A stretch of 64,000 bases of DNA from Euzebya tangerina (GTDB lineage: Bacteria; Actinomycetota; Nitriliruptoria; Euzebyales; Euzebyaceae), in contig NZ_PPDK01000002.1 in assembly GCF_003074135.1 (NCBI RefSeq), positions 124,001 to 188,000 on the forward strand, given 5' to 3'. The position numbers and the translations under genes are program-made. The stretch's first letter is position 1; each line of letters begins with the position of its first letter. The notes beneath the pieces were generated by a model. That model did not search any database and was not told where the DNA came from. It worked only from the letters and a program-made list of their open reading frames with translations. Below are positions 1-18,260 of the stretch, one piece after another.

Positions 1-3000
1 CCGCCACCGACGACCTGACCGATCGTGATGGTCAGGGGATCGCCGTTGGGGTCGACGTCGTTGGTCAGGACGTCCACCCGCACCGACTGGCCGGGCTCGG
101 CCGTGACGCTGTCGCCCACTGCACGGGGGGGCAGGTTGCGGACCGTGATGGTCACCGTCGTCGTGGCGGTGCTGCCGCTGCCGTCGGTGAGGCGATAGGT
201 GAACGTGTCGACACCACGGAACCCGGGAGCCGGGGAGTACTGGATGGTGTTGCCGACGATCTCGGGTGAGCCGCGCGTTCCGCTGGTGCTGATGCTCGTC
301 AGGGTCAGGCCGTTGCCGGCCGGGTCCAGGTCGTTGCCCAGCACCTCGATGGTGATGCGGGTCGGGGTCTGGCCGGCGGCGTAGCCGTCCATGGTCCGGC
401 GGTCCGGCACGGCGACGGCTGGGACGTCGCCGACCGCGACGGTGACCGTGGCCGTCGTGATGCCACCGTCCCCGTCGTCCACCTGGTAGGTGAAGGTGTC
501 GGTGCCGGCGAAGCCCGGATTCGGGGTGTATGTGGCCACACCTGAGGGGCTGATCGTCACCGTCCCGTTCGCCGGGTCCGAGACCACGGACCACGTCAGC
601 GGATCCCCGTTGGGGTCGCTGTCGTTGGCGGCGAGGTTGATCGCCGTGGCCGTGTTCTCGTCGGTGGTCGCCGAGTCGTTGCCGGCCACGGGTGCCGCGT
701 TCGGAACGGTGACGGTGACGGTGGCGCTGGCCTGGTCCTCGCCGTCGTCCACCTGGTAGGTGAAGGTGTCCGTGCCCTTGAACGAGGCATCAGGGGTGTA
801 GGTGACGGTCCCATCGGCGGTGATGGTCGCGGTCCCGCCCGCCGGGTCGCTGACCGATGCGATGGTCAGGGTGTCGGAGTTGGAGTCGGTATCGTTGCCG
901 AGGACGTTGATCGTCACCGGCGTATCGGGCGCTGTCGACCGCTCGTCGTCCCGGGCGATCGGGACGGCGTTGCGGACCGTGATCGTCACCGTCCCGGTCG
1001 AGAGGTCACCGCTGCCGTCGGTCACGACGTAGGTGAGGGTGTCGGTCCCCTTGAAGCCCGCGGGTGGCGTGTAGATGAGGTCGTCGCCGTCGACGACGAC
1101 CGCTCCAGACGTAGAGGTCGTGTCCACCGACGTCAGCGAGAGGCCGTTGCCGGCGTCGTCATCGTCGTTGCCGAGCACGTCGACCCGAACTGAGGTGGCC
1201 GGTTCACCGGGGCCGTAGCTGTCAACGGCCGCGTCGTCGTCGTTGGCCACGGGTGCGACGTTGGTCACCGTGATGACGACGGTGCGGGTGATGACACCCC
1301 CGTCGCCATCGTCGATGACGTACACGAACGAGTCGTCGCCGTCGTAGCCGGGGTCGGGGGTGTAGGTGGCCACACCGTCCGTGAGATCCACGGTGCCGTT
1401 GGCCGGTTCGGTGTCGATCGTGAACGTCAGCGGGTCGCCGTTGGGGTCGGTGACGCCGTCGGCCAGGTCGACCTCGACCGCGGTGTTCTCCGGTGTGGTG
1501 ACCGCAACCGGGTCGCGGCCGTCCACCACGGGTGGTGCGTTCGGGACGGTGACCGAGACGGTGGCCGTGTCGGTGCCGGTGTCGCCGTCGCTGACCTGGT
1601 AGGAGAAGGTGTCCGTCCCCTTGAACGTTGCTGCGGGGGTGTAGGTGATCCCATCCGGCCCGATCTCTGCCGTGCCGCCGGCCGGGTCACCCACCGCGGC
1701 GACGGTCAGGGTGTCGGCGTTGGAATCGGTGTCGTTGGCCAACACGTCGATCAGGACAGGACTGGCGACGGTGGTCGTCGCCGTGTCGGACCTGGCGATT
1801 GGCGCCAGGTTGAACACGCGGACCTCGACGGTGGCCGTGTCCTCATCGCCTGAGCCGTCCACGACCGTGTAGCTGAAGGTGTCGGTGCCCTTGAACCCCG
1901 GGGGTGGGGTGTAGACGACGTCGTCGCCGTCGATCAGGGCTGTGCCGGTCGTCGAGTCCGTCCTGAGTGATTGCACGGTCAGACCGTTGCCGGCCGCGTC
2001 GAGGTCGTTGGTGAGCACGGAGATCCGGACGCTGGTCGCTGGGCTTCCAGCGCCGTAGCCGTCGACGGATGCCTGGTCATCGACCGCGACGACGGGGACG
2101 TCGAGCACGGTGATGGTGACCGTTCGGCTGGCGGTGCCGCCGGCGCCGTCGTCGATTTGGTACGTGAAGACGTCGAATCCGATGAATCCCTGGTCCGGGG
2201 TGTAGGTGGCCTGGCCGGTGGTGGGGTTGATGACCACGGTGCCGGCCTCGGGCTCCACGAGCGTGGTGTAGGTGAGCGGGGCACCCTCGGGGTCGGAGAC
2301 GCCGCGCGTGAGGTCGATCCCGACCGGGGTGTTCTCCGGGGTGCGCGCACCCAGCTCGCCCCCGCGGATGATGGGGGTGGCATTGTCCACCGAGATGGTG
2401 ACGGTTGCGGTGTCGGTGCCGCCGTCGCCGTCAGAGACGGTGTAGGTGAAGCTGTCGGTGCCGTTGAACCCGGGACCGGGGGTGTAGGTGATGGTGCCGT
2501 CGCCGGCGTCGGACAGCGAGCCGTTCGTGGGGTCGGTGACGGCGGTGACGGTGAGGGTGTCGGTGTTGGAGTCGGTGTCGTTGCCGAGCACCGTGATGTC
2601 GACCGGCGTGCCCCCGACGGTGGTCGCGGTGTCGTCGCGGGCGATCGGGGCGGCGTTCGGCACGGTCACCGTCACGGTGGCCGTCGCCGTGTTGCCGGAG
2701 CCGTCGACCAGGGTGTAGGTGAACGCGTCGGTCCCCTTGAACCCACCAGCCGGCACGTAGTTGACCTGGTTGCCGCTGACGACCGCAGTTCCCACGGTCC
2801 CCGCGGTGTCGAGGCTGTCCAGGGACAGGCCGTTGCCGGCGGGGTCGAGGTCGTTGTCCAGCACCGCGATGGGACTGGGTGCCACGGGCTGGCCGGCTGC
2901 CCGGCCGGTGACCGTGGCGGAGTCGTCAACCGCCGTCGGGGGAACGTCGGTGACGGTGACGGTGACGGTGCGGATGGTCGTGCCGCCATCGTCGTCGGAG

Positions 3001-6000
3001 ACGGTGTAGGTGAAGGTGTCGGTGCCCACGAACCCGGGGTCCGGGGTGTAGGTGACGATCCCGGCGCCGTCGATGACCGCCGATCCGTTGTCGGGCTGCC
3101 CGCCGATTCCGAAGGTGAGGGGGTCGCCATTCGGGTCGGTCGCGCCGACGGTGACGTCGACCAGCACGTCGGTGTTCTCTGGTGTGGTCGTCGTGATCGG
3201 TTCGCCGTCCACGACGGGCACCGCATTGGCCACGGTGACGGTGACGATGCCGGTGTCGGTGCCGGTGTCGCCGTCGCTGATCTGGTAGGTGAAGGTGTCG
3301 GTGCCCTTGAAGCCCTCGCCGGGGGTGTAGGTGACCGCGCCGTCCGGGCCGATCACCGCGGTGCCGTTGGCCGGGGTGCCGACGGCGGTGATGGTGACGG
3401 TGTCGGTGTTCGAGTCGGTGTCGTTGGTGAGCACGTCGATGTCAACGGGGGTCACCAGGGTCGTGGTGGCGGTGTCGGGTCGGGCGATGGGTGCGGCGTT
3501 GGCCACGCTGACGCTGACCGTGGCGGTGTCGCTGTTGCCCGACCCGTCCACCAGTTGATAGGCGAAGGTGTCGGTGCCCTTGAACCCGGTGGGCGGGGTG
3601 TAGCGAACCTGGTCGGCCTCGACCTCCGCGGTGCCGGCCGTGCCGGTGGTGTCCACCGAGTCGATGGCCAGACCGTTGCCGGCCGGATCCTCGTCGTTGC
3701 CGAGGACGTCGATCAGCACACTCGTCGGGGTGTCCCCGACGCCGTAACTGCCCACTGCCGCGGTGTCACCGTTCGCGGTCGGGGGAACGTCCGTGACCGT
3801 CACGATCACCGTGCGGGTGATGATGCCGCCGTCGCCGTCATCGATCAGGTAGGTGAACGTGTCGGTGCCGCTGAAGCCCTGGTCCGGCGTGTAGGTCGCA
3901 ACACCCGTTGGTGTGATCGACACCGTTCCGTTGCTCGGGTCAGCCCCGGTTGCGTAGGTGAGGTCGTCGTCGTTGGGGTCGCTCACACCGTCGGTGAGGT
4001 CGATCGTGGCCGGCGTGTTCTCCGGAGTGCTGGTCTCCAGGTTCCCGCCGCTGACGCTTGGGGGCGCATTGGCGACGGTCACCCTGACGGTGGCGGTGTC
4101 GGTACCACCGTCCCCGTCGGACACGACGTAGGTGAAGGAGTCGGTGCCCTTGAACCCGTCCGCCGGGGCGTAGGTGATCGTGCCGTCCGGGTTCGCCACT
4201 GCGATGCCGCTACCGGGACTTCCGACCTCCTCGATGGTCAGCGTGTCTGAGTTGGAGTCCGTGTCGTTGACCAGGACGGCGATGTCGACGGGCGTGTTGA
4301 GCCCGGTGGACGCGCTGTCGTCCCGCGCGATCGGCGCCGCATTGGCCACGGTCACGACCACCGATGCGGTGTCGGTGTTGCCCGAACCGTCGATCAGGGT
4401 GTAGACGAAGACGTCGGTGCCCTTGAACCCTGCCGGGGGCGTGTAGCGGACCTCGTCGCCGATCACGACCGCCGAGCCAGCTGTGCCCGCAGCATCGACG
4501 GCATCGACGGCGAGGCCGTTGCCGGCCGGGTCCTGGTCGTTGTCGAGGACGTCGATCAGCACGGAGGTGGGCGTGTCTCCGGAGGCGTAACCAACCACTT
4601 GAGCCGCGTCGGGGACGGCCGTCGGGGGGACGTCGGTGACGGTCACCGTCACGGTGCGGATGACGGTTCCGCCATCGCCGTCCGAGATCCGGTAGGTGAA
4701 GGTGTCCGTACCGCTGAACCCGGGGTTGGGCGTGTAGGTCGCGACGCCATCGGTGATCTCCACCGTGCCGCCGGTGGGCGCATCATCGACGGTGTAGCTG
4801 AGCGGATCGCCGTTGGGGTCGCTGACTCCCTCGGTCAGGTCGATGTCGACCGGGGTGTTCTCCGGAGTGGTGGCTGCGAGGTCACCACCGACGATCACGG
4901 GCACGGCGTTGTCGACGGTCACCGTCACGGTGGCGCTGTCGGTGCCACCGTCGCCGTCGGAGATGCTGTAGGTGAACGTGTCGGTGCCCTTGAATCCAGG
5001 GCCGGGTGTGTAGGTGACGATCGTGCCGTCGGTCGTGGTCGTGCCGTTGCCGGGTGACGAGACAGCCGTGACGGTCAGCGTGTCGCTGTTGGAGTCGAGG
5101 TCGTTGCCCAGCACGGTGATCTCAACAGGCGTGCCCTCGGTCGTCGACGCGGTGTCGTCGACCGCGGTCGGTGGGGCGTTGCTGACGGTCACGGTGACGG
5201 TTTCGGTTGCCGTGTTGCCGGAGCCGTCCAGCACCTGGTAGTCGAAGGTGTCGGTGCCCTTGAAGCCAGCCGCGGGGGTGTAGACGACCTCATCGCCGTC
5301 GATGACGGCGGTCCCGGTCGTGGAGTCGGTGATCAGCGCGAGCAGTTCGAGACCGTTGCCGGCCGGGTCGGTGTCGTTGTCGAGCACGGGGATCCGGACG
5401 TTGGTCGGTGTGTCACCGTCGGCGTAGCTCGCCACTGTGGCGGTGTCGGGGCTGGTCGTCGGCGGCACGTCGCTGACGGTGATCGTGACGGTGGCCGAGC
5501 TGAGCCCGCCATCTCCGTCGTCGATGACGTAGGTGAAGCTGTCGGTGCCGCTGAACCCGGCGAAGGGTGTGTAGGTCGCGAGGCCGGTCGCGCTGACCGT
5601 CACCGAGCCGTTCGTCGGCGCGGCCCCCACGACATAGGTCAGCGGGTCCGCATTGGGATCGCTGTCTCCCACCGTCAGGTCGATGTCGACCGGCGTGTTC
5701 TCGAGGGTGGTCGCCGTGTCGTCGGTGGCGATCGGGTCGGCATTCGGGACGGTGACCGTGACCGCTGCGGTGTCGCTGCCCCCGTCGCCGTCGGTCACGC
5801 GATAGGTGAACACATCGGTGCCCTTGAACGTGGCATCCGGGGTGTAGGTGATCGTCCCGTCCGGGTTCACGGCAGCGGTGCCGTTGTCGGGGGCCGAGAC
5901 CTCGGTGACCGTCAGTGGGTCGTCATTCGCGTCGGCGTCGTTGGCCAGCACGGGGATGTCGACGGGTGTGCCCGCATCCGTCGCCGCGGTGTCAGCGACT

Positions 6001-9000
6001 GCGGTCGGTGGGGTGTTGACGACGGTGACGCTCAGCGTCGAGGTCGCGGTGCCTCCGTCGGGGTCGGTCACCCGGTAGGTCACGGTGTCGGTGCCCTTGA
6101 AGCCGGGCGCGGCGGTGTAGTCGAGCGTCCCGTCCGGGTTGATGGTGACGGTGCCGGTGCCTCCCTGCGTGCCCGCGATCGTCAGGGCCTCGCCGTTGGG
6201 GTCCGCATCGTTGTCGAGGACGCGAATGCCGGCCGCGGTTCCGCCGCCAGCGACGCTTGCCATGTCCGGCGCGGCCGTCGGGGGGCCGTTGGGTACGACG
6301 ACCCGGACGGTGGCCGTGTCGGTTCCGCCGCCGGTGTCGGAGATCGTGTAGGAGAACTCGGCAGTCCCCACGAAGGCTGCGTCAGGCGTGAAGTCGATCG
6401 TGCCGTCGCCGTTGTTTGTGACGGTGCCACCCGTGGCCGGGCCGATGGCTGTGATGGCCAGCGTCAGACCGTTCGGGCTCACGTCGTCGCTCAGGATGTC
6501 CGCGCCGACGAGTGCTGCCGCGGCACTTCCCGGCGCGGGCGTGGGCAGCACGAAGCGGTTGTCCCGTGCCAGCGGCGCCTCGGCGGAGACCTCGATCACG
6601 ACCGTGGCCGTTGCGGTGCCGCCACGGCCGTCGGAGACGGTGTAGGTGAAGGTGTCGGTGCCGACGAAGTCCTGTGCCGGGGAGAAGTCGAACGTGCCAT
6701 CGCCACCAGAGGTCACCGTGCCACCGCCGGTCCCGACCGCGTCGAATGCGGTGACGGTGAGCGGGTCACCGTTGTCGTCGGTGTCGTTGGCGAGTGCGTC
6801 GATGGTCACGACGGTCACCGGATCGCCGGGGCCGTAGGCGGGCATGGTCTCGAAGTCGTCCTGGGCGTCGGGAACCACGTTGGGGACGGAGACGGTGATC
6901 GTGGCGGTGTCGGTTCCCCCGTCCACGTCGCGGACCTGGTAGGTGACCAGGTAGTCGCCGACGAATCCCGGGGGTGGCGTGACCGTCACGGATCCGTCGG
7001 GGTTGACCCGCGCCGAACCGCCGGCCGGTACTGCTCCGACGATGGAGACGCTCAGTGGGCCACCGTTGGGGTCGGCGTCGTTGTCCAGCACGAAGATGGT
7101 GACCGGCTCGCCGGCCTTCGCCGTCGCGATGTCGTCCTGGGCCAGCGGTGGGGCGTTGGCGACGTCGATCTCGACGACCGCGACGTCCGTTCCGCCGGCA
7201 GCGTCGGAGACCGTGTAGGTGAAGCCACCCGCGCCGACGAACGTCGGGTCGGGTGTGAACACGGGGATGCCGTCAGCACCGATCGTGACCGAGCCACCCA
7301 CCACGTCGTCGATGCCGACGACCGTCAGCGGGTCTCCGTTGGGGTCGGTGTCGTTGGCGAGCACGTCGATCGGCGTCGCCGTGTTGGCGGGCACCGTGGC
7401 GATGTCATCGGCCGCAACGGGTGGTCCGTTCGCGACATCAACCGTCACGGTCTCGGTCAGGGTGGAGCCTGAGGCATCGCGCACCGTGTAGGTGAAGGTC
7501 ACCGGGCCACGTGCGGCTGGTGCCGGGGTGAAGCGAACCTCGCCATCGACGACGATGGCCGTCCCGACGGCTGGATCGACGTCGACGGCGATGACCTGCA
7601 GGGGACCGGTGTTGCCGGGCGCCGCGTCATTGGCGAGCACCGGGATCATCACGGAGGTGCTGGCGTCGGTCACGGCCGAGTCGGGTGCGGTGATCGGCGG
7701 CTGCTGGGTGATGTCGATGGTCACGGTTGCCGTGTCAACACCGCCGTTGCCATCATCGACCTCGTAGCTGAAGGTGGTCTGCTCGATGTCGGGGTCGCCG
7801 TCCCCGAGCAGGGGGGCGGTGTAGGTGATCGTGCCATCGGGGTTGACGGCGGCGGAGCCCAGCGCGGGCTGGTTGAGGATCGTGACGGTCAGCGGGTCGC
7901 CGTTCGGATCGGTGTCGTTGGCGAGGACGGTCAGCACCAGGTCCTCGCCCTCGGGCACCGCACCGGCGTCGTCGCGCGCGATGGGGGCGGTGTTGGCGAC
8001 GGTGACCGTGACGGTTGCGGTCGCGGACAGGCCCTGCTCGTCGGTGATGGTGTAGGTGAACGTGTCGGCGCCGGCGAAGTCGGCGTCCGGGGTGTAGACG
8101 ATCTGCCCGTCGACGACGCTGACCGAGCCGCCTGCCGGGTCGGCGACGGCGGTGATCTGCAGGTTCGCGTTGTCGCCGTCGGGGTCGTCATCATCGGCCA
8201 ACACGTCGATCGTCACCGGGGTCCCACCAGCGGTGGATGCGGTGTCATCACCGGCGGTGGGGGCGGCGCCAACCGCTGTCGTGACGGGGTCGGTGGCGTT
8301 GTTGCCCGGGTTGGTGTCGTCGTTGTCGCCGGTGACCGATGCGGTGTTGGCGAGCGGACCGGCGGCGTCCCCGTCAACCGTCGCGGTGACGGTCAGGCTC
8401 TGGACGTCGCCAGGAGCGAGGGCGCCGATCGCGCAGGTCAGCGTGCCGGCGTCGTTCGTGCAGGAGTCGGGCAGGTCGGTCACGGTGACGTCGGCCGGCA
8501 GCACATCGGTCACGACCACGTCCGGTTCGGTGTCCGGACCGGCGTTGCGAACCGCGAGGCTCCAGGTGATCGGCTCACCGGGTAGAACCACGTCGGCGGG
8601 GTCCGCGGTCTTGGTGATCGACAGGTCGCTCTCGACCACCACCGTCTTGACGTCCTGCTGGCTGGTCTGGGTGAAGGTCCTGCCGGCCGTGGACTCATAG
8701 GTCATCGAGGCCTGGTTCTCGATGAGGAAGTTGTTGGGGATGCCCGGCTGCACTTGGACGCGGAAGCGGACCGTGTTGACCTCGTTCGTCTCGAACGTCC
8801 CCCCGTCGGTGCTGTTCGCCCCGGTGCCGAGCCGCACGGTGAGCACACCATCGGTGACGTCGACCTGGTCGGCGTCGATTGCTTCGGTCTTCGCTCCCGC
8901 GTTGGCGCCGGCGACCAGGTCGATCGAACCGGGGACCAACTCGGTGAACGACGGGAGAGGGTCGGTCAGGACGGAGCGGAGTGCGTCGTCGATCCCGGTC

Positions 9001-10220
9001 ATCGGGTCGGGCTGCAGGTTGGAGACGCGGATCGTGTACTCGATGATGTCGCCGGGCTCGGCCTGTCCGCCGTTCAGGTCCTCGCCGACCTTGTCGATCT
9101 CGATGTTTGGCGCGAAGAGATCGGTGACGAAGGTGACGACACCGGGCCGGTACACGTCGCCCGTGCTCGACAGGCGGATCGTCGCGCTGGTGGCGTTGTT
9201 CGCCAGGATGCCGCTGGCGTCCACCCGGTCGACGTCGACGGCGAACTGGTCCTTGTAGTTCGGGTTCTTCGCCGTGAACGTGGTCGCGAGGTTCGAGATC
9301 GAGGAGTTGAAGAAGTTGTTGGCGGGGTTGTTGGTGTCGGATCGCGTGTTGCCGTTCAGCTGGAGGGCGTCGCCGGTGATGGCGTTGTCGCCCTCCCAGG
9401 CCAGGACACCCAGCTGGGTCCGCACCGGACCGAGCCGCGGGGTCTGGAAGCCCGAGACGGTGATGGTCTGATTGTTGTTGTTGGAGATCTGCTGGTAGCC
9501 GTCGAACACCGTCAGATTTCGGGCGGGGGCGCTGCGATCGCGGTAGGCGAGCTGGATGGCCCACCCGGCGTAGTTGTCCTGGCCGGTGCCCGTCTGGACG
9601 TTGGCGACGCCGTAGGTGCCGTTGCCGGAGCTCCGGACCTGTGTGGTGATGTCGGCGAAGCCCTGGTAGTAGGCGGTGTCGAAGCCCATCACCTCGTCCG
9701 CCACGACCGTCGAGTAGGCCGTGCTGCCCGGGAGGCGGAACTGCACGACACCGGCGTCGGCGCGGTTCGGCGCTGCGCTCCCGGTGGCGTTGACGCCCTG
9801 CCGCACGTCGGCGCCCCAGTACAGACCGGCGAAGAGCACCTCCGCACCAGCGGGGAGCGACAGCTCGGCCGTGGAGGAGTTGAAGGTCGAGGCGTTGCCG
9901 TCGACGTCGACCATCACCATGTTGAAGTTGTTGTTCGCCGTCGGCGGGGAGGCCGTTCCGTTCCGGGTCGCCGTGCAGTTGTTCGCCGTCGCCGGGCAGG
10001 TCAGGAGGGTGTTGCCGATCGCCGCGATGTTGCCGGTGGTGTTGATGGCGTAGCGCGGCTCGAAGGTCTGCAGCCCGTTGCTGGCCGGCGGTGTCGTCTG
10101 CGCGGCAGCCGGCGTGGCGAGGCCGGTCGTCAGAAGACCGACGATCAACAGCAGGGCCATGAGCCCGGCTGTGGTGCGGCAGTCGGAGCGGGTGCGAGCG
10201 CCGGTCGGCAGATCCCCCAT
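1..10220 (-). CDS. Giant secreted Ig-like repeat surface protein, C-terminus beyond left edge
   Basis: The frame is open from ATG 10220 to the left edge (3,406 codons and no stop); the frame was checked near 5018, 2492 and 119 and is unbroken. The start gives a signal peptide with a hydrophobic core LMALLLIVGLLTTGLATP and an AAA-Q cleavage region near residue 40. Then come an N-terminal domain shared with the next gene (LFAGLYWGA), DUF11-like domains (PGDIIEYTIRVSNL; SLAVRNAGPDTEPDVV), and about 29 full plus one partial Ig/cadherin-like repeats of about 95 aa with DVLANDTDPNGDPLTV and FKGTDTFTY signatures. Such repeats (VCBS/tandem-95 type) build adhesins or wall stalks in known families. From repeat 9 on, a three-repeat block recurs seven times. 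It probably ends in CWB2 repeats like its paralogue, but that part is not visible. No strong ribosome binding site precedes the ATG. Confidence 0.85.
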   Translation of the reverse strand, partial: MGDLPTGARTRSDCRTTAGLMALLLIVGLLTTGLATPAAAQTTPPASNGLQTFEPRYAINTTGNIAAIGNTLLTCPATANNCTATRNGTASPPTANNNFNMVMVDVDGNASTFNSSTAELSLPAGAEVLFAGLYWGADVRQGVNATGSAAPNRADAGVVQFRLPGSTAYSTVVADEVMGFDTAYYQGFADITTQVRSSGNGTYGVANVQTGTGQDNYAGWAIQLAYRDRSAPARNLTVFDGYQQISNNNNQTITVSGFQTPRLGPVRTQLGVLAWEGDNAITGDALQLNGNTRSDTNNPANNFFNSSISNLATTFTAKNPNYKDQFAVDVDRVDASGILANNATSATIRLSSTGDVYRPGVVTFVTDLFAPNIEIDKVGEDLNGGQAEPGDIIEYTIRVSNLQPDPMTGIDDALRSVLTDPLPSFTELVPGSIDLVAGANAGAKTEAIDADQVDVTDGVLTVRLGTGANSTDGGTFETNEVNTVRFRVQVQPGIPNNFLIENQASMTYESTAGRTFTQTSQQDVKTVVVESDLSITKTADPADVVLPGEPITWSLAVRNAGPDTEPDVVVTDVLPADVTVTDLPDSCTNDAGTLTCAIGALAPGDVQSLTVTATVDGDAAGPLANTASVTGDNDDTNPGNNATDPVTTAVGAAPTAGDDTASTAGGTPVTIDVLADDDDPDGDNANLQITAVADPAGGSVSVVDGQIVYTPDADFAGADTFTYTITDEQGLSATATVTVTVANTAPIARDDAGAVPEGEDLVLTVLANDTDPNGDPLTVTILNQPALGSAAVNPDGTITYTAPLLGDGDPDIEQTTFSYEVDDGNGGVDTATVTIDITQQPPITAPDSAVTDASTSVMIPVLANDAAPGNTGPLQVIAVDVDPAVGTAIVVDGEVRFTPAPAARGPVTFTYTVRDASGSTLTETVTVDVANGPPVAADDIATVPANTATPIDVLANDTDPNGDPLTVVGIDDVVGGSVTIGADGIPVFTPDPTFVGAGGFTYTVSDAAGGTDVAVVEIDVANAPPLAQDDIATAKAGEPVTIFVLDNDADPNGGPLSVSIVGAVPAGGSARVNPDGSVTVTPPPGFVGDYLVTYQVRDVDGGTDTATITVSVPNVVPDAQDDFETMPAYGPGDPVTVVTIDALANDTDDNGDPLTVTAFDAVGTGGGTVTSGGDGTFDFSPAQDFVGTDTFTYTVSDGRGGTATATVVIEVSAEAPLARDNRFVLPTPAPGSAAAALVGADILSDDVSPNGLTLAITAIGPATGGTVTNNGDGTIDFTPDAAFVGTAEFSYTISDTGGGTDTATVRVVVPNGPPTAAPDMASVAGGGTAAGIRVLDNDADPNGEALTIAGTQGGTGTVTINPDGTLDYTAAPGFKGTDTVTYRVTDPDGGTATSTLSVTVVNTPPTAVADTAATDAGTPVDIPVLANDADANDDPLTVTEVSAPDNGTAAVNPDGTITYTPDATFKGTDVFTYRVTDGDGGSDTAAVTVTVPNADPIATDDTATTLENTPVDIDLTVGDSDPNADPLTYVVGAAPTNGSVTVSATGLATYTPFAGFSGTDSFTYVIDDGDGGLSSATVTITVSDVPPTTSPDTATVASYADGDTPTNVRIPVLDNDTDPAGNGLELLALITDSTTGTAVIDGDEVVYTPAAGFKGTDTFDYQVLDGSGNTATETVTVTVSNAPPTAVDDTASTTEGTPVEITVLGNDLDSNSDTLTVTAVSSPGNGTTTTDGTIVTYTPGPGFKGTDTFTYSISDGDGGTDSATVTVTVDNAVPVIVGGDLAATTPENTPVDIDLTEGVSDPNGDPLSYTVDDAPTGGTVEITDGVATYTPNPGFSGTDTFTYRISDGDGGTVIRTVTVTVTDVPPTAVPDAAQVVGYASGDTPTSVLIDVLDNDQDPAGNGLAVDAVDAAGTAGSAVVIGDEVRYTPPAGFKGTDVFVYTLIDGSGNTDTASVVVTVANAAPIARDDSASTGLNTPVDIAVLVNDTDSNSDTLTIEEVGSPGSGIAVANPDGTITYAPADGFKGTDSFTYVVSDGDGGTDTATVRVTVANAPPSVSGGNLETSTPENTPATIDLTDGVSDPNDDDLTYATGADPSNGTVSITPTGVATYTPDQGFSGTDTFTYLIDDGDGGIITRTVIVTVTDVPPTANGDTAAVGSYGVGDTPTSVLIDVLGNDEDPAGNGLAIDSVDTTGTAGTAEVEADQVRYTPPTGFKGTDTFAYQLVDGSGNSDTATVSVSVANAAPIARPDTATTTLVTPVDIDVLTNDTDSNTDTVTITAVGTPANGTAVIGPDGAVTYTPGEGFKGTDTFTYQISDGDTGTDTGIVTVTVANAVPVVDGEPITTTTPENTDVLVDVTVGATDPNGDPLTFGIGGQPDNGSAVIDGAGIVTYTPDPGFVGTDTFTYTVSDDDGGTTIRTVTVTVTDVPPTAVDDSATVTGRAAGQPVAPSPIAVLDNDLDPAGNGLSLDSLDTAGTVGTAVVSGNQVNYVPAGGFKGTDAFTYTLVDGSGNTATATVTVTVPNAAPIARDDTATTVGGTPVDITVLGNDTDSNTDTLTVTAVTDPTNGSLSDAGDGTITYTPGPGFNGTDSFTYTVSDGDGGTDTATVTISVDNATPIIRGGELGARTPENTPVGIDLTRGVSDPEGAPLTYTTLVEPEAGTVVINPTTGQATYTPDQGFIGFDVFTYQIDDGAGGTASRTVTITVLDVPVVAVDDQASVDGYGAGSPATSVRISVLTNDLDAAGNGLTVQSLRTDSTTGTALIDGDDVVYTPPPGFKGTDTFSYTVVDGSGDEDTATVEVRVFNLAPIARSDTATTTVASPVLIDVLANDTDSNADTLTVAAVGDPAGGTAEIGPDGITYTPAATFKGTDTFSYQVSDGDTGTDTATVSVTVPNAPPVVDGRDPVAVTTPENTAVEVDLADGVTDPNGDPLTFTIDTEPANGTVDLTDGVATYTPDPGYDGDDSFVYVIDDGDGGVITRTVVITVTNVAPVANDDDAAVDSYGPGEPATSVRVDVLGNDDDDAGNGLSLTSVDTTSTSGAVVVDGDDLIYTPPAGFKGTDTLTYVVTDGSGDLSTGTVTITVRNAVPIARDDERSTAPDTPVTINVLGNDTDSNSDTLTIASVSDPAGGTATITADGTVTYTPDASFKGTDTFTYQVDDGEDQASATVTVTVPNAAPVAGNDSATTDENTATAINLAANDSDPNGDPLTWSVVSDPANGTVTISPSGVATYTPNPGFAGTDTFTYQVDDGDGGITTATVTVAVGDVPAVAVPDRRTMDGYAAGQTPTRITIEVLGNDLDPAGNGLTLTSISTSGTRGSPEIVGNTIQYSPAPGFRGVDTFTYRLTDGSGSTATTTVTITVRNLPPRAVGDSVTAEPGQSVRVDVLTNDVDPNGDPLTITIGQVVGG
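150..6010 (-). repeat. Higher-order repeat: seven copies of an about 840-bp (three Ig repeat) block
   Basis: Inside the giant gene the Ig-like repeats cycle in triads: a PIARDDTATT...NDTDSNSDTL type, a TTPENTPVDIDLT type and a GYGxGDTPTSVxIDVL type. The 8-base marker gtgttctc (plus strand), which encodes the PENT-type position, occurs at 652, 1483, 2329, 3172, 4015, 4855 and 5695. The spacings are 831, 846, 843, 843, 840 and 840 bp, all multiples of three. The paralogous gene has this marker only once, at 12572. The outer boundaries are approximate. Confidence 0.85.
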
Positions 10221-10285
10221 GTCAAACGTCCGTTCTGGAAGTCGGTCTAGCGATGAGTTGTGTGCATCCCTGTCGGCTCGCATCG

Positions 10286-10329
10286 CGGCTACTTGAGCAG
10301 TTAGGACACGCAATGATTGCCTGCAATCA
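10286..10329 (-). promoter_or_regulatory. Putative promoter with abutting palindrome upstream of the giant gene
   Basis: On the minus strand TTGCGT (10313-10308) is followed after 16 nt by TAGCCG (10291-10286), an imperfect sigma-70-like pair. A perfect 7-2-7 inverted repeat TGATTGC-CT-GCAATCA (10314-10329) directly abuts the -35, the usual place for an activator site. The pair lies about 70 nt upstream of the ATG at 10220. The match is suggestive only. Confidence 0.35.
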
Positions 10330-10427
10330 CAGAGAGTGGTTTCTTGCTGTTCGATCTTGCCGCCCGTGAGGATTGGTGCGCACCCTCAACCCTCAACCCT
10401 CACGGCCTGCTGCGACGGCCAGCCCTT

Positions 10428-10460
10428 GGGGCCGACCCAGTCAGCTACTGGGTCTGCCCC
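10428..10460 (-). terminator. Strong hairpin downstream of the CWB2/Ig-like gene
   Basis: A 13-bp stem with one mismatch (10428-10440 paired with 10448-10460; core GACCCAG/CTGGGTC) and a 7-nt loop begins about 50 nt after the stop at 10513 on the minus strand. There is no U-tract, as is common in high-GC actinobacteria. The rest of the 10,221-10,512 gap holds a short ctcaaccctcaaccctca run and the promoter region of the next gene. Confidence 0.55.
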
Positions 10461-10512
10461 CTGGGTCTGGCGGTGCGGAGGTCCTGCCGGCCCGCCTCAG
10501 CCGTCGTCGCGG

Positions 10513-13500
10513 TCAGCCGTCGCCGTTCGCGGCGGCCGCGATGGCGGCCTCGACCTCCTCGGTCACCGCGTTGGTCCCGCCCACGATCCGGATCGTCTCG
10601 ATCGGCCCGGAGTTGGCCGCCACCAGGTCCAGGATCTCGGGTGATCCGGCGGGGTCCTGGCCGTTGACGAGGGCGACGGTGTCGCCGAGGGCACCGATGA
10701 CCGGGCCGGTCGTCAGGGCGTCGGGCCAGTCCAATCCCGTAGCGACCCACAGCACTTCGGGGTCGAGGCCCAGCGCCAACCCCTCCTGGTACAGCAGCGC
10801 CAGCGTCTCGTACCTGGTCGCGCCGGCGATCCGCTCGATGTCAAAGCCCAGATCGGCGATCTGCTGCTCGACCTCGGCGCTCACGGCGGCCGTGCCGCCG
10901 ACGACGATGACATTGGTTGCCTCCGATGCCGCCAGGGCATCGATGGTCTCCTGTGGTAGCCGGGTGGCGTTCACCAGCAGGATCGGGCGCTGGGAGAACG
11001 CCGCCTGCGACGAGACGCCCAGGGCATCGGGCCAGCCCCGCTGCGGATCGACGTTCTCGCCCTCGGTGATGTACACGGTGGTGCCGTCCGGCTCGTCCAA
11101 GTTGGCTTGGACCAGTCGCGCGGTGTCGAAGCGGTTCACACCACCAACCCGGCTGACGTCCAGTCCGAGATCAGCGACCTGTCCGGCGGTCTCGGCCGAG
11201 ACCGCGACCTCGCCGCCCAGGATGAGGGCGTTCTCCGCCCCCAGCCGAGTGATCTCGGTGGATGTGGCCGAGTCGAGCTGGCCGGTGGAGGTCAACAGGA
11301 TCGGTGCGTTGAGTTGCCGCGCGATGGTGGCGCCGGAGAGGGCGTCCGCGTAATCGTCGGACCGCGCGAGCACCACCCAGGGCGCGCCATCCGGGTAGGC
11401 GATCTGTGCCACCAGGATCGCGGTCTCGATGCGGGTGTCGCCCGCGACTCGGACCACCTCGGCGCCAGGCTCACCGTCACCCTCCAGCACCGTGACTGTC
11501 ACGGTTGCCGTTGTGGTGTTCCCGCCTTCGTCGGTGATCTCGTAGACGAAGGTGTCCGTCCCGACGAAACCCTCGTTCGGCGTGTAGATGAGTTGACCGT
11601 CGGGACCGATTTCGACGGTGCCGTTGGCTGGGCCATCGAATCCGTCGGGGTTGATGGTGATGGGCCCGCCATTGGGGTCGAAGTCGTTGTCGAGCACCGG
11701 GATCCGGACGCTGCCGCCTGTAGTGACGGTGGCGTCGTCGTCCTCGGCGACGGGCGCGAGGTCGTTCACCTCGACCGACACCGTCGCAGTGGACGTGTTC
11801 CCGTTGATGTCGGTGATCTCGTAGGTGAAGGTGTCGAGGCCGACGAACCCGGGTGGCGGTGTGTAGACGAGTTGCCCGTCCACGATGTCGACCGTCCCCT
11901 GGGTGTCGGAGGTGTCGACGTCGGTGATGTCGAGTCCTCCGCCGGCTGGATCGGCGTCGTTGCCGAGCACGTCGATCGTGACCGAGGTGGGGTCGCCGTC
12001 ACCGCCGTAGCCGTCGACGGTTGCGCTGTCGTCCTCCGCCTGCGGTTCCAGACCCCCGACGGTCACGGTCACATCAGCCGTTGCCGTGTTGCCGCTGCCG
12101 TCGGTGATCGTGTAGGGGAACGTCTCGGTACCGACGAAGCCCGGGGGTGGGGTGTAGACCAGCTCACCGTCGACTATTTCGACGGTCCCCTCGATGCCGG
12201 AATCGTCGAATCCGGTGATCTCCAGACCGTTGCCGGCCGGGTCGAGGTCGTTGGCGAGTGCGTCGATGGTGACCGAGGTCGGGTCCTCGCCGGGGGAGTA
12301 GCCGTCGACGGAGGCGGCGTCGTCGGAGGCGGTCGGCGGGACATCGCCAACGGTGACGGTGACGGTTGCGGTCGTGATCCCCCCGTCGCCGTCGTCGACG
12401 ACGTAGGTGAAGGTGTCGGTCCCGTCGAACCCGTCGAAGGGGGTGTAGACGACGGTTCCGGTCGCCGTATCGATGGTGACCGTTCCGTTGGAGGGCTGCG
12501 TCCCCAGGCCGAACGTCAACGGGTCGCCGTTGGGGTCGCTGTCGTTGGCGGCGACATCGATCGTCACCGGTGTGTTCTCATCGGTGGTGGCGGTGTCGTC
12601 TCCGGCCTCGGGGGGAGCATTGGGCACGACCACCGTGACCGTGGCGGTGTCGGTCCCCCCGTCGCCGTCGATGATGCTGTACTCGAACGTGTCGGTGCCC
12701 TTGAAGCCGGCCGTCGGGGTGTAGGTGATCGTGCCGTCACCGCCAGCGACGGCTGACCCGTTCGCGGGAGTGCCGACGGTCGAGACCGAGATGGGGTCGT
12801 CGTTCGGATCCGAGTCGTTGTCGAGCACGGGTATGTCGACGGGTGTGGCTGGATCCGTTTCGGCGTCGTCGTCGACGGCGACCGGTGGCTCGTTGGCAAC
12901 GGTGACCGTGACCGTCGCCGTCGCCGTTCCACCATCGGGGTCGGTGACCGTGTAGGTGATCGTGTCAGTGCCCTTGAAGCCGGGGGGTGGTGTGTATGAG
13001 AGGGTTCCGTCCGGGTTGACGGTGACCGTTCCCTGACCGCCCTGCGTGCCGGTGACGGTCAGTGGCGAGCCGTTGGGGTCGCTGTCGTTGCCGAGGACGT
13101 CGAGGATCGAGGTACCCGTTCCTGGCACGTCAGCGGTGTCGTCGCCGGCCGTGGGGATGGCGTTCGGCACGACGATCCGCACGACGGCGGTGTCGGTCCC
13201 CGTGTCGGTGCCCGTGGTGTCGGCGATCGTGTAGGTGAACTCTGCCGTCCCGACGAAGGTCGGGTCTGGCGTGTAGTCGATGGTCCCGTCCGGGTTCAGG
13301 TCCACGGTCCCGCTCGAGGGCGTGCCCACGCCGGTCACGGTCAGATCAAGGCCGTTCGGACTGGTGTCGTTGCCCAGCAGGTCCCCGGCCGTCAGCGGAG
13401 CGGGCAGCGAGCCCGGCGCCGGATCGGGAAGGACGAACAGGTCGTCGGTCGCCAGTGGGGCGTCGGCCGACACCTCGATCACCACGGTCGCAGTCGCGGT

Positions 13501-16500
13501 TCCGCCACGGCCGTCTTCGATCGTGTACGTGAAGGAGTCGGTGCCGGTGAAGCCCTCGGCTGGCGTGTAGTCGAACGTCCCGTCACCATTGTCGACGATG
13601 GTTCCGCCACTGTCGGTGGTCGTGTCCACCTGCGTGACCGTCAGCGTGTCGCTGTTGCTGTCCGTGTCGTTGGCCAGGGCGTCGATCGTGACCGTGGTCG
13701 GCGGCTCGGCCGGCCCGTACGCGGCAACCGTTCCGAAGTCGTCGCGTGCGTCTGGGAGGGCGTTGGCGACGGTCACGGAGATGGTGGCCGTGTCCGTTCC
13801 GCCGTTGCCGTCTCGGACCTCGTAGGTGACCTCGTAGGTCCCGGTGAAGCCGGGAGGGGGCGTCACGACGACCGAGCCGTCGGGGTTGACCACAGCGGAA
13901 CCACCCTCGGGCACGCCACCGACGATCGAGACCGTGAGCGTGTCGGAGTTGGAGTCGGTGTCGTTGTCGAGTGGGTAGACGGTGACCGGCGTGTCGGTGT
14001 CGGTGACCGCCGCGTCGTCATTTGCGACTGGTGGGGCGTTGGCCACGTCGACGGTGACGGTGGCCGTGTCCGTTCCGCCGTTGCCGTCGCTGATCGTGTA
14101 CTCGAACGAGCCCTCGCCGACGAACGTGGGGTCGGGGGTGAAGACGGGCAGGCCGCTGCCAGCGTCGATCGTCACGGTGCCACCGACGGGGTTGTCGACG
14201 CCGATGACCGTCAGCGGGTCGTCGTTGGGGTCGTTGTCGTTGGCGAGCACGTCGATGGTCGTCGGCGTGTCGAAGGGCACGGCCGCGGTGTCGTCGGTCG
14301 CCTCGGGCGGCGCGTTGTTGACCGTCACGGTGACGGTCTCGCTGAGTGTCGAGCCCGACGCGTCGCGGACGGTGTAGGTGAACTCGACGTCGCCGGACAC
14401 GCCGGGTGCGGGCGTGAACTGGACCTGACCGTCGATGACGATCGCCTCGCCGACCGCCGGGTCGACGTCCACGCCGACGACACCGAGCGGACCGGTGCTG
14501 CCGGGGGCGGCGTCGTTGGCCAACACGTCGATGGTGATCGGCGTCTCCGGGTCGGTCACGCCGCTGTCGGGCGCGGTCACGGGCGGCACCTGGGTGACCG
14601 TGAGGCTGACGGTGGCTGTCGCCGTCCCGCCGTTGCCGTCATCGACCTCGTAGGTGAAGGGCGGCACCACGACGACATCCGGGTCGTCATCGCCCAGCAG
14701 GCCGGGATCGTAGGTGATCGTGCCGTCACCGTTGTCCGTGACCCCATCCGGCAGGCCTCCCGGGAAGGAGACCGAGAGGTCGTCGCCGTTGACGTCGGTG
14801 TCGTTGGCGAGGAGGTCGATGGTGATCGTCTGACCCTCCTCCACGGCGCCGGCGTCGTTGCGAGCGACCGGATCGGCATTGGCCACATCCACGGTGACGG
14901 TCGCGGTCTGGGTCAGACCCTGCTCGTCGGTGACGGTGTAGGTGAAGGTGTCTTGGCCCGCGAATCCTGGATCGGGTGTGTAGACGAGCTGCCCGTCCAC
15001 GATGGTCACCGAGCCGTTCGGCGGGTCGCTGACCGCGGTGATGGTGAGCGCCGCGTCATCACCGTCGGGGTCGCTGTCGTTGCTGAGCACGTCGATCGTG
15101 ACGGGCGTGCCGGGACCGGTGCTGGCCGTGTCGTCGTCGGCCACCGGAGGCTGTGCGATGTCGACCGCGACCGCGGCGGAGGTGTTGTTGCCGGGGTCGG
15201 GGTCGGTGTTGTCACCCGACACCGTGGCGGTGTTGCTCGGCGAGTCACCGGGTGCGCCCGTCACCTCACCCTCGATCTCGAGGGAGATCGCCGTCCCGGA
15301 GGCCAGGGCCCCCAGGTCGCACTCGACGAGTGTGCCGACTTGGGTGCACTCGGCCGGCAGCGATGTGACGCTGATCCCCGCCGGGATGTCATCGGTCAGG
15401 ACCACCGCAGGATCGGCGTTGGGACCCGCGTTGCGCACCTCGAGGACGTACGTGACGGTCTCACCGACGGCGACGGGGCCAGCCGGGTCCACCGACTTGC
15501 GGACCGACAGGTCGCTGCGCACCACAACAGGCTGGGAGTCGACGTTGCTCGAGTTCTCGAAGTCAAGATCGGCCGTGGAGGAGAACGCGACGGTCGCGTC
15601 GTTGTCGATGCTGGAGCCGTCGACGACACCCTCCAGCACCTCGACGCGGTACCGAATGGTGTTCACCTCGTCCGTCTCGAACACACCGCCGTCCGTGGCA
15701 TCAGCACCCGTGCCCAGACGCGCCGTCAGCACGTTGCCTGCCACGTCTACCTGGTCGTCGCCGGCGGCGGCGGTCTTGCCGCCGGCGTTCACCCCGTCGA
15801 CGTAGCTGATGGAGCCCGGGACCAGGCGCGTGAAGGCTGGCAGTTCGTCGGTCAGGACCGTGTCGACTGCGTCGTCGATGCCGTCGGCCGCCGGTGGCTG
15901 CAGGTTCGAGATCTCGATCGTGTACTCGATCACGTCCCCGGGCTCGGCGCTGCCGCCGTTGATGTCCCGCCCGGTCTTGGTGATCTGCACGTTGGGGGCG
16001 AAGAGCTCGGTGGAGAAGGTCACGACCCCGGGGAAGTACTGGTCACCGCTGGACGTCAGGTTGATCGTCGAGCTGGTCTGGTTGTTGGTCAGGATCCCCG
16101 AGGCGTCGACCCGATCGAGGTCGACGGCGAGCTGGTCGACGAAGTCCGGGTTCTTGTCGTCGAACCGTGCGCCGAGGAACGAGATGGAGGAGTTGAAGAA
16201 GTTGGTGGACGGGTTGTTGGTGTCGGAGATGACGTCTCCGTCCAGGCTCAACTGGTCGCCGGTGATGCCGCTGTCGCCCTCCCAGGAGAGGATGCCGACC
16301 TCGGACCGCACCGTGCCGAGCGGCGGTGTCTGGAAGCCCTCCAGGGCGATGTTGATCGGGTTGCCGTTCGAGACGACGTCATAGCCGTCGAAGATCGTCA
16401 GGTTGCGCGCAGGCTCAGCCTGGTCGCGGTACGCCACGATCAGCGCCCACCCGCCGTACCTGCCTCCACCCAGCCCCGCCTGGACGTTGGCGACCCCGTA

Positions 16501-17115
16501 GGTTCCGGAGCCCGCGGCCCGGACCTGGGCGGTCACGTCGGCGACACCCTGGTAGTCACCCGTCGCCGAGCCGTCGACGGTGTCGGCCACGATCGGCTGG
16601 TAGTCGGCGTCCCCGGGAACGGTGAGCAGGACACGGCCCTGATCGGCAGGCGTCGGCGCGGCAGGTCCGTCGGGCCCCGACGCTGCGGGCGTGTTGCCGG
16701 AGATGCGCGCCCCCCAGTACAGCCCGGCGTACAGCACCTCTCCGCCAGCCGGGATCGTGAGGTCAGCGGTGGAGGAGTTGAAGGTGTTGGGGTCGCTGTC
16801 GATGTCGACGTTGATCATCGCGAGGCTGTTGTTGGACCCGCTCTGGGTGCCGGCCCGTGCCGCATCGCAGTTGCCCTGACCTGGCGTACACGACACCACC
16901 ACGTTCCCGGTCTGGGTGATGTCGCCGGGCGTGTTGATGCTGAAGGCCGGACCGAAGGAACGGTCGCCGCTCGCTGGCGGTGGGCCAGTCTGGGCCGCGG
17001 CCGGACTGGCCATCCCCGTCAAGGCCATGGCTGCGGCGAGCACACCGACGAGCACGCGCAGCGTGGTGCTGCTGAGCGTGGCGCGGTGATGGGTGGGCGC
17101 GGACGTGAGGGGCAT
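10513..17115 (-). CDS. Secreted Ig-like repeat protein with three C-terminal cell wall-binding repeats (CWB2)
   Basis: 2,200 aa. Signal peptide about residues 1-41 (LVGVLAAAMALTGMASPAAA). N-terminal domain with VLYAGLYWGA, then DUF11-like domains (VIEYTIEISNL; TYVLEVRNAGP). Thirteen Ig/cadherin-like repeats of about 95 aa follow (ADDDTAST...IDVLSNDSDPDGDD; FTYTVTDEQG). Three CWB2 (PF04122-type) repeats occupy about residues 1882-2200, each with the RVAGxxRxETA, DALS/DALG/DALT and GGTxAVSxEVE hallmarks. CWB2 modules in clostridial and actinobacterial proteins hold them non-covalently on the wall, so this is probably a wall-attached stalk or adhesin. The ATG at 17115 is preceded by AGGA about 7 nt upstream. 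Repeats 1-8 correspond one-to-one with those of the gene at 1-10220, so the two are tandem paralogues. Confidence 0.9.
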   Translation of the reverse strand: MPLTSAPTHHRATLSSTTLRVLVGVLAAAMALTGMASPAAAQTGPPPASGDRSFGPAFSINTPGDITQTGNVVVSCTPGQGNCDAARAGTQSGSNNSLAMINVDIDSDPNTFNSSTADLTIPAGGEVLYAGLYWGARISGNTPAASGPDGPAAPTPADQGRVLLTVPGDADYQPIVADTVDGSATGDYQGVADVTAQVRAAGSGTYGVANVQAGLGGGRYGGWALIVAYRDQAEPARNLTIFDGYDVVSNGNPINIALEGFQTPPLGTVRSEVGILSWEGDSGITGDQLSLDGDVISDTNNPSTNFFNSSISFLGARFDDKNPDFVDQLAVDLDRVDASGILTNNQTSSTINLTSSGDQYFPGVVTFSTELFAPNVQITKTGRDINGGSAEPGDVIEYTIEISNLQPPAADGIDDAVDTVLTDELPAFTRLVPGSISYVDGVNAGGKTAAAGDDQVDVAGNVLTARLGTGADATDGGVFETDEVNTIRYRVEVLEGVVDGSSIDNDATVAFSSTADLDFENSSNVDSQPVVVRSDLSVRKSVDPAGPVAVGETVTYVLEVRNAGPNADPAVVLTDDIPAGISVTSLPAECTQVGTLVECDLGALASGTAISLEIEGEVTGAPGDSPSNTATVSGDNTDPDPGNNTSAAVAVDIAQPPVADDDTASTGPGTPVTIDVLSNDSDPDGDDAALTITAVSDPPNGSVTIVDGQLVYTPDPGFAGQDTFTYTVTDEQGLTQTATVTVDVANADPVARNDAGAVEEGQTITIDLLANDTDVNGDDLSVSFPGGLPDGVTDNGDGTITYDPGLLGDDDPDVVVVPPFTYEVDDGNGGTATATVSLTVTQVPPVTAPDSGVTDPETPITIDVLANDAAPGSTGPLGVVGVDVDPAVGEAIVIDGQVQFTPAPGVSGDVEFTYTVRDASGSTLSETVTVTVNNAPPEATDDTAAVPFDTPTTIDVLANDNDPNDDPLTVIGVDNPVGGTVTIDAGSGLPVFTPDPTFVGEGSFEYTISDGNGGTDTATVTVDVANAPPVANDDAAVTDTDTPVTVYPLDNDTDSNSDTLTVSIVGGVPEGGSAVVNPDGSVVVTPPPGFTGTYEVTYEVRDGNGGTDTATISVTVANALPDARDDFGTVAAYGPAEPPTTVTIDALANDTDSNSDTLTVTQVDTTTDSGGTIVDNGDGTFDYTPAEGFTGTDSFTYTIEDGRGGTATATVVIEVSADAPLATDDLFVLPDPAPGSLPAPLTAGDLLGNDTSPNGLDLTVTGVGTPSSGTVDLNPDGTIDYTPDPTFVGTAEFTYTIADTTGTDTGTDTAVVRIVVPNAIPTAGDDTADVPGTGTSILDVLGNDSDPNGSPLTVTGTQGGQGTVTVNPDGTLSYTPPPGFKGTDTITYTVTDPDGGTATATVTVTVANEPPVAVDDDAETDPATPVDIPVLDNDSDPNDDPISVSTVGTPANGSAVAGGDGTITYTPTAGFKGTDTFEYSIIDGDGGTDTATVTVVVPNAPPEAGDDTATTDENTPVTIDVAANDSDPNGDPLTFGLGTQPSNGTVTIDTATGTVVYTPFDGFDGTDTFTYVVDDGDGGITTATVTVTVGDVPPTASDDAASVDGYSPGEDPTSVTIDALANDLDPAGNGLEITGFDDSGIEGTVEIVDGELVYTPPPGFVGTETFPYTITDGSGNTATADVTVTVGGLEPQAEDDSATVDGYGGDGDPTSVTIDVLGNDADPAGGGLDITDVDTSDTQGTVDIVDGQLVYTPPPGFVGLDTFTYEITDINGNTSTATVSVEVNDLAPVAEDDDATVTTGGSVRIPVLDNDFDPNGGPITINPDGFDGPANGTVEIGPDGQLIYTPNEGFVGTDTFVYEITDEGGNTTTATVTVTVLEGDGEPGAEVVRVAGDTRIETAILVAQIAYPDGAPWVVLARSDDYADALSGATIARQLNAPILLTSTGQLDSATSTEITRLGAENALILGGEVAVSAETAGQVADLGLDVSRVGGVNRFDTARLVQANLDEPDGTTVYITEGENVDPQRGWPDALGVSSQAAFSQRPILLVNATRLPQETIDALAASEATNVIVVGGTAAVSAEVEQQIADLGFDIERIAGATRYETLALLYQEGLALGLDPEVLWVATGLDWPDALTTGPVIGALGDTVALVNGQDPAGSPEILDLVAANSGPIETIRIVGGTNAVTEEVEAAIAAAANGDG

Positions 17116-17203
17116 CAGCGTTCCTGTTCAGTTCGTGGCATGCGTGCCGCCGCCCGTGTCGGCGGCCTCCCGTGGGTGTTCCGTGTCACGCGCCGTCCGG
17201 CGG

Positions 17204-17216
17204 TGACGGTCCGTCA
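17204..17216. promoter_or_regulatory. Possible operator palindrome upstream of the CWB2/Ig-like gene
   Basis: A perfect 6-1-6 inverted repeat TGACGG-t-CCGTCA lies about 90 nt upstream of the ATG at 17115, just downstream of a minus-strand TTTACT (17224-17219) that could be a -10 box. It would then overlap the transcription start. No matching -35 was seen, so this is a weak candidate. Confidence 0.25.
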
Positions 17217-17305
17217 GGAGTAAACCACATACCGCATGATGGAGGTAGCCGGTTCGGGAGGTCGTTGCGGCGCGATGGTCACATCCGCGCCTTTGGGGCG
17301 GCCAG

Positions 17306-17311
17306 TACCCT
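17306..17311 (+). promoter_or_regulatory. -10 box of a leaderless promoter (Ca2+/Na+ antiporter gene)
   Basis: TACCCT ends 7 nt before the ATG at 17319, with no Shine-Dalgarno between them, so transcription would begin at or next to the start codon. No good -35 is evident. Confidence 0.5.
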
Positions 17312-17318
17312 CACCGCC

Positions 17319-18260
17319 ATGCGTGACGCTCTCCTCCTCGTCGCCGGCCTGGGACTGCTGACCTACGCCGCCGACAAGTTCGTCCTCGGCGCCGTGCGCG
17401 TCGCCACGATCCTGCGCGTCTCCATCGTGCTGGTCGGTGCCCTGGTCGTCGGCTTCGGGACCAGTGCACCGGAACTCCTGGTCAGCGCGCTGGCCTCGAT
17501 CGACGGGAAGCAGGACATCGCCCTCGGCAACATCGTCGGCTCGAACGTCGCCAACGTCATGCTCGTCATCGGGTCGGCGGCCCTCTTCGGCGTGCTGCCC
17601 ATCACGACCCGGATCTGGAGGCAGGAGATCCGGCTGATGCTGATCGCGATCGGCGTGCTGGCGCTGGTGTCCTACGACCTTCGGGTCTCGACCATCGATG
17701 CCATCTTCCTGCTCGTCGGTGCCGTCGCCGCCATCGGGCTGATCATCTACTGGGCATCCAAGGACCGTGAGGCCGCGCAGGAGATCCAGGTTGAGGTCGG
17801 CGAACTCAGCGAGGGAGAGCACCGCTTGGGACCCTCCATCGTCCTCACACTGGTCGGGCTCGCCGGGACGTTGGCGGGGGCCCAGATGCTGGTGGTGGGG
17901 GCCTCCGGACTGGCCGAGGCGCTGGGGCTGAGCGAAGCGGTCATCGGTCTCACGGTCGTGGCGATCGGGACCTCGTTGCCGGAACTCGTGACGGCCGTCG
18001 CCGCTGCACGACGCCAGGAGAACGACCTGATCATCGGCAACGTCGTCGGCTCCAACATCTTCAACTCCCTGCCCGTGGCCGGGGTTGCCGGGATTCTCGA
18101 TACCACGCCGCTGGACAGCCAGTTCGGCTTGAGCCTGCTGCTCATGGTCGGTGGCTGCGTGCTGTTCGCGGTCTTCTCGAGGACCGACTTCTTCGTCAAC
18201 CGGTGGGAGGGCGGCGTCCTGCTGGCCGGCTACGCGGGTGTGACGGCTCTGGCGCTGTAG
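17319..18260 (+). CDS. Calcium/sodium antiporter, CaCA family (YrbG-like)
   Basis: 313 aa integral membrane protein with the two inverted alpha-repeats that define the Ca2+:cation antiporter superfamily. The first has GFGTSAPELLVS and GNIVGSNVANVMLVIG; the second has AIGTSLPELVTA and GNVVGSNIFN. The acidic residues in the two PEL motifs are the expected ion ligands. About ten hydrophobic segments surround a short charged loop (residues about 150-170, KDREAAQEIQVEVGELSEG). Known members exchange Ca2+ or K+ for Na+ across the cytoplasmic membrane. ATG 17319 is chosen because it begins the first membrane helix and sits 7 nt after a -10-like TACCCT. An upstream in-frame extension would add an uncharacteristic basic segment. 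The gene is divergent from the giant surface protein gene and stands alone. Confidence 0.9.
   Translation: MRDALLLVAGLGLLTYAADKFVLGAVRVATILRVSIVLVGALVVGFGTSAPELLVSALASIDGKQDIALGNIVGSNVANVMLVIGSAALFGVLPITTRIWRQEIRLMLIAIGVLALVSYDLRVSTIDAIFLLVGAVAAIGLIIYWASKDREAAQEIQVEVGELSEGEHRLGPSIVLTLVGLAGTLAGAQMLVVGASGLAEALGLSEAVIGLTVVAIGTSLPELVTAVAAARRQENDLIIGNVVGSNIFNSLPVAGVAGILDTTPLDSQFGLSLLLMVGGCVLFAVFSRTDFFVNRWEGGVLLAGYAGVTALAL

Follow-up and report, generated by a model that had tools for sequence, protein, structure and literature searches.

In Firmicutes, the adhesive domains of fibrillar adhesins are N-terminal (PMC8286594). The growth of repeat proteins by duplication of blocks of several domains, often in the middle of the array, has already been described (PMC1553488), with titin as an example (PMC10665226), and bacterial immunoglobulin (Ig)-like repeats have been named among those that expand through internal duplication (PMC1553488). 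Here we describe three tandem paralogous genes of Euzebya tangerina, which we call A, B and C, in and beside a window of 64,000 nucleotides (nt) that corresponds to positions 124001-188000 of contig C2 (C2:124001-188000). We consider it very probable that these genes encode secreted, C-terminally wall-anchored, fibrillar-adhesin-like stalk proteins, and that the stalks of A and B were lengthened by in-phase duplication of a three-domain block, mostly before A and B split.

Gene C (window positions 10513..17115, (-) strand, as are all parts of B and C given below) is complete and encodes 2,200 amino acids (aa). Gene B occupies 1..10220, with its start at either 10220 or 10283, and runs on to C2:122560, which gives a protein of 3,886-3,907 aa depending on the choice of start. 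A preliminary description of the window had reported two tandem giant genes; B and C are indeed adjacent paralogues, but gene A (C2:111418-122385, 3,655 aa), which lies wholly to the left of the window, brings the number to three. The same description had forecast that the truncated gene would end about 1.4 kilobases (kb) beyond the left edge with three CWB2 repeats, at about 3,870 aa. B was found to end 1,440 base pairs (bp) to the left with three CWB2 repeats and, with the 10220 start, a length of 3,886 aa, and an unrelated end is excluded.

According to domain scans, each of the three proteins has a signal peptide and an N-terminal domain, besides two DUF11-like (CLIPPER) domains, a series of Big_9/cadherin-like repeats and three CWB2 motifs. 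A purpose-built repeat model counts 28 repeats in A, 31 in B and 13 in C. In C the signal peptide, the DUF3344-like N-terminal domain (model residues 52-370) and the first CLIPPER/DUF11-like domain (372-535) are encoded at 15500..17115, and the matching N-terminal region of B lies at 8613..10220; the N-terminal domains of B and C are 55-59% identical. Each of repeats R1-R8 (12886..15147 in C, 6009..8261 in B) has a single counterpart in each of the other genes, and B and C are 56-73% identical per slot. These identities agree with the preliminary description, in which the two genes had signal peptide, N-terminal domain and DUF11-like domains in common, with repeats 1-8 also in matching order, and its start-to-marker distances of 4,518 and 4,536 nt are consistent with the repeat coordinates. 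Beyond repeats 1-8 there are triads of a, b and c type repeats, six in A, seven in B and a single one in C (12046..12885), followed in A and B by two repeats, E1 and E2. C differs in that a second c-type repeat (11755-12045) occupies the slot where A and B hold the unrelated E1; together with E2 (11476-11754) it forms the tail repeats of C (11476..12045), which precede the tail with the three CWB2 motifs (10513..11475).

The seven triads of B lie at 5172..6008 (triad 1, with a b-type repeat of the ‘outer’ kind), 4335..5171 (triad 2), 3492..4334 (triad 3, without a counterpart in A), 2649..3491 (triad 4, pairing with A triad 2), 1803..2648 (triad 5, whose a and b repeats pair with A triad 3), 963..1802 (triad 6, pairing with A triad 5) and 129..962 (triad 7, pairing with A triad 6 and also of the outer kind). 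The AlphaFold model of triad 6 consists of three Ig-like domains, with a predicted local distance difference test score (pLDDT) of 94. At least seven triads had been expected in B and one in C; the count is exactly seven in B, with a period of 834-846 bp, and one in C. Repeats of B that are separated by multiples of three are 60% identical, against about 43% at other lags (59% and 43% in A), and none of 5,000 shuffles matched the difference seen in B, which places the period far above chance. Autocorrelation peaks at lag 3 and lag 6 in both A and B (60-61% versus 40-43%). Similarity among the triads gives the same picture: within B, repeats of one phase share on average 56-65% identity, compared with 39-47% between them and repeats 1-8. 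In contrast, the profile shows no peak in 19 homologous arrays that share this head and come from Actinoplanes and its relatives: identity is about 40% whatever the lag. The three-domain period is also absent from other Big_9 arrays in the same genome, in congeners and in another actinobacterium (L121, L122, L123, L014 and L136). Because the lag peak is found only in A and B and the 19 homologous arrays are flat, the triad super-repeat is special to these two genes among the arrays examined.

The array had been put down to a higher-order repeat expansion in one paralogue. Duplication of a three-domain block is real, but the six triads of A follow the order of their counterparts in B: repeats A12-16 with B18-22, A21-22 with B24-25 and A24-28 with B27-31. 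In a domain-level alignment A and B differ by three indels, each of exactly three repeats (B09-11, B15-17 and A17-19), and among the 720 possible orders of the A triads the true one takes rank 5. Paired A/B repeats are 60-77% identical, a degree of identity close to that of repeats 1-8. Since the triads pair in order and have diverged about as much as repeats 1-8, the array appears to be mostly older than the A/B split, with later gains or losses of whole triads in the middle of the array leaving six copies in one gene and seven in the other.

The clean 834-846 bp period, together with the fact that A and B differ by whole triads, might also be taken as the product of a recent expansion private to B, in a Periscope-type protein whose length varies readily in 280-aa steps. 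We regard this as quite improbable. The triads within B are only 63-73% identical in DNA, their third codon positions are 48-61% identical compared with 52% for unrelated slots, that is, near saturation, and the longest exact run among them is 28 nt. The B array is therefore old; a recent expansion in B is rejected on the DNA divergence of its triads, and the ready length switching in steps of about 280 aa proposed in the preliminary description is unsupported. That A has the same array in the same order also speaks against a private expansion, as does the definition of Periscope proteins, which calls for repeats that are highly identical in DNA (PMC8201768, PMC9704523). A possible recombination substrate does exist in A, where the c repeat A11 has been homogenised with the next, A14, over about 310 nt at 98% identity, 840 bp apart. 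Likewise, B and C share about 238 nt at 99-100% identity at their 3’ ends, made up of about the last 210 coding nt and another 26 nt beyond the stop. Both tracts are sharply bounded and are best read as recent gene conversion, the only such events here. As conversion does happen at this locus, array segments might have been copied between A and B, in which case the ordered correspondence would reflect exchange and not common descent. This seems unlikely to us, because the paired repeats are only 60-77% identical, so that any such exchange would need to date back almost as far as the paralogues themselves. Misassembly of the tandem genes or triads is conceivable in a repetitive region of a 12-contig assembly but is hardly credible here: A, B and C are each an uninterrupted open frame, all on a single 575-kb contig, and their copies differ by 20-40% in DNA, beyond what would confuse an assembler, leaving only the 310-nt A11/A14 and 238-nt B/C tracts exposed.

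The single triad of C could be either the state before expansion or a deletion scar. In the latter case C would have lost its array by an in-phase deletion that joined the a repeat of the first triad to the b repeat of the last, which we think quite possible, if short of probable. C09 groups with B09 of the first triad (95/79), C10 is nearest to B28 of the last triad (71% aa identity) and C11/C12 can group with the c repeats of last triads. One N-terminal tree moreover joins B with C (Shimodaira–Hasegawa-like approximate likelihood ratio test, SH-aLRT, 87); were this grouping right, the array would be older than C. Yet C10 is basal among the b repeats in the tree of all repeats, approximately unbiased (AU) tests on the repeats reject neither history (p 0.35-0.52), and a careful N-terminal tree with outgroups does not settle how A, B and C branched. 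Slot by slot, no repeat-to-slot correspondence was found between the Actinoplanes-type arrays and the repeats of A, B and C, and the former are therefore unusable as an outgroup for the array. Several points weigh against our reading of a fibrillar-adhesin-like family expanded mostly before the A/B split. As the trees do not fix the branching order even with outgroups, ‘before the A/B split’ rests on the repeat correspondence, which an old A/B conversion could partly imitate, and the alignment itself tends somewhat towards whole-triad indels, because repeats that are out of phase receive lower scores. As for the proteins themselves, the head matches no characterised adhesin domain, with no known adhesive family found at an E-value of 0.1, and the PILL motif occurs in only two of the three CWB2 motifs of each protein.

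The predicted model of the head is confident (pLDDT 88), and residues 52-370 (in C at about window positions 16005-16962) have 359 relatives in genome contigs of several phyla, with a confident predicted fold; DUF3344 is the nearest Pfam family to this part, with a score under the Pfam cut-off. A fold search with the head gave matches confined to the CLIPPER part (372-535), and residues 52-370 were barely probed by that search. The solved CLIPPER domain 9ifr matches this second domain of the head. Judged by eye, each of the three proteins also has Lys, Asp and Asn in both of its DUF11-like domains, at the positions that make up the isopeptide bond of 9ifr. At the other end, each of the three proteins has three CWB2 stretches, and in Clostridioides difficile wall anchoring needs three tandem CWB2 motifs (PMC4973711). 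In A the linker ahead of the CWB2 motifs is a (TDP)n stretch in whose DNA a 9-bp unit recurs about 23 times with 82% matches (C2:112421-112630), an in-frame minisatellite whose length could vary more readily than that of the triads.

We propose that the signal peptide would export the chain and the three C-terminal CWB2 motifs would fix it on the wall, so that the Ig-like stalk would carry the N-terminal globular head (DUF3344-like plus CLIPPER) outward. An Ig-like domain spans about 4 nm; on that basis C is predicted to reach about 50 nm outward, and A and B 110-125 nm. The A/B stalk would have grown in mid-array by in-phase tandem duplication of the block. Because the copied unit consists of three unlike domains, neighbours along the stalk stay dissimilar, at about 41% identity, as in the unexpanded homologues, and tandem runs of near-identical folds would be avoided. 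Multi-domain duplications have been proposed to be favoured by selection against the misfolding of alike neighbours (PMC1553488). We may speculate further that the triad is itself the selected unit, such that the stalk is lengthened only in blocks of three unlike domains for safe folding and the three genes provide two reaches (about 50 and 110-125 nm) for related heads, although we hold this to be rather doubtful.

The genes lie in a 31.6-kb block that, besides A, B and C, contains an alpha/beta hydrolase and a helix-turn-helix (HTH) regulator and is absent from three congeneric genomes. Its right border is a Na+/Ca2+ exchanger gene (17268..18260, (+) strand). In all three congeneric genomes this gene adjoins a Zincin_1 gene, which here lies 31.6 kb away (C2:109192-109566). 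The block is therefore lineage-specific, either gained here or lost in the others. Its G+C content (68.7%) is like that of its surroundings (69.1-69.2%) and thus gives no sign of recent import, and a search for an integration site found no tRNA. Among 66 genomes of the class no other has the head domain, whose relatives have a scattered distribution across Actinomycetota, Planctomycetota, Deinococcota and Pseudomonadota. Scans of gene C and the B/C gap for sigma-70 promoters and terminators gave no matches. Long open frames of 759 and 756 aa also lie on the + strand opposite the repeat genes (1971-4250 and 14953-17223); these are mirror frames of high-G+C coding DNA and are not taken as genes. 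CWB2 (PF04122) has 163 matches in this genome of 4.8 megabases (Mb), often in long frames, compared with three sortase genes, and seems to be the main wall anchor of the organism. Another CWB2 protein, of 676 aa with three motifs, is encoded near the right end of the window (61490-63520).

A, B and C resemble the fibrillar adhesins and fibrillar-adhesin-like proteins (PMC8286594) in having a signal peptide, head domains, a long stalk of Ig-like domains (Big_9, E-set clan) and a C-terminal wall anchor, and the multiple tandem stalk domains that mark the fibrillar-adhesin-like class are present in all three (13 in C, 31 in B and 28 in A). They differ in that the head is without a recognised adhesive domain and the anchor is CWB2 and not LPXTG. 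The Actinoplanes-type homologues (for example L061 and L035) have the same N-terminal domain, DUF11-like domains, Big_9 array and tandem genes. Unlike A and B they lack the three-domain period; they are 1,500-1,900 aa long, and several end in an LPXTG-type signal. In genomes of this type (L061, L035, L048 and L055) head homologues with 9-12 Big_9 repeats occur as tandem gene pairs. A, B and C thus carry a stalk of like kind, but mount it on the anchor that their own lineage favours.

Among repeat proteins at large, the arrays of A and B are most like the super-repeats of the titin A-band and nebulin (PMC10665226, PMC1553488), where domains that share a position in the block resemble one another more than they do their neighbours and growth took place in mid-array, several domains at once; here, however, the protein is bacterial, extracellular and wall-anchored, and the block is of three Ig-like domains. 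With 19 unexpanded homologues as controls, and two paralogues that record the same expansion as well as later gains or losses of whole blocks, the locus is an unusually legible bacterial case of stalk growth by multi-domain block duplication. It also illustrates that a repeat period that looks clean by eye does not mean that the repeats are recent or variable, and that their divergence needs to be measured. As in the Periscope proteins (PMC8201768, PMC9704523), the number of tandem domains sets the length of a stalk that carries an N-terminal head outward, but the repeats of B are not highly identical in DNA, only the A11/A14 pair reaching 98%, and the comparison here covered one genome per species. 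What A and B present is a clear case of a known way in which proteins grow, rather than a switch for rapid changes of length.

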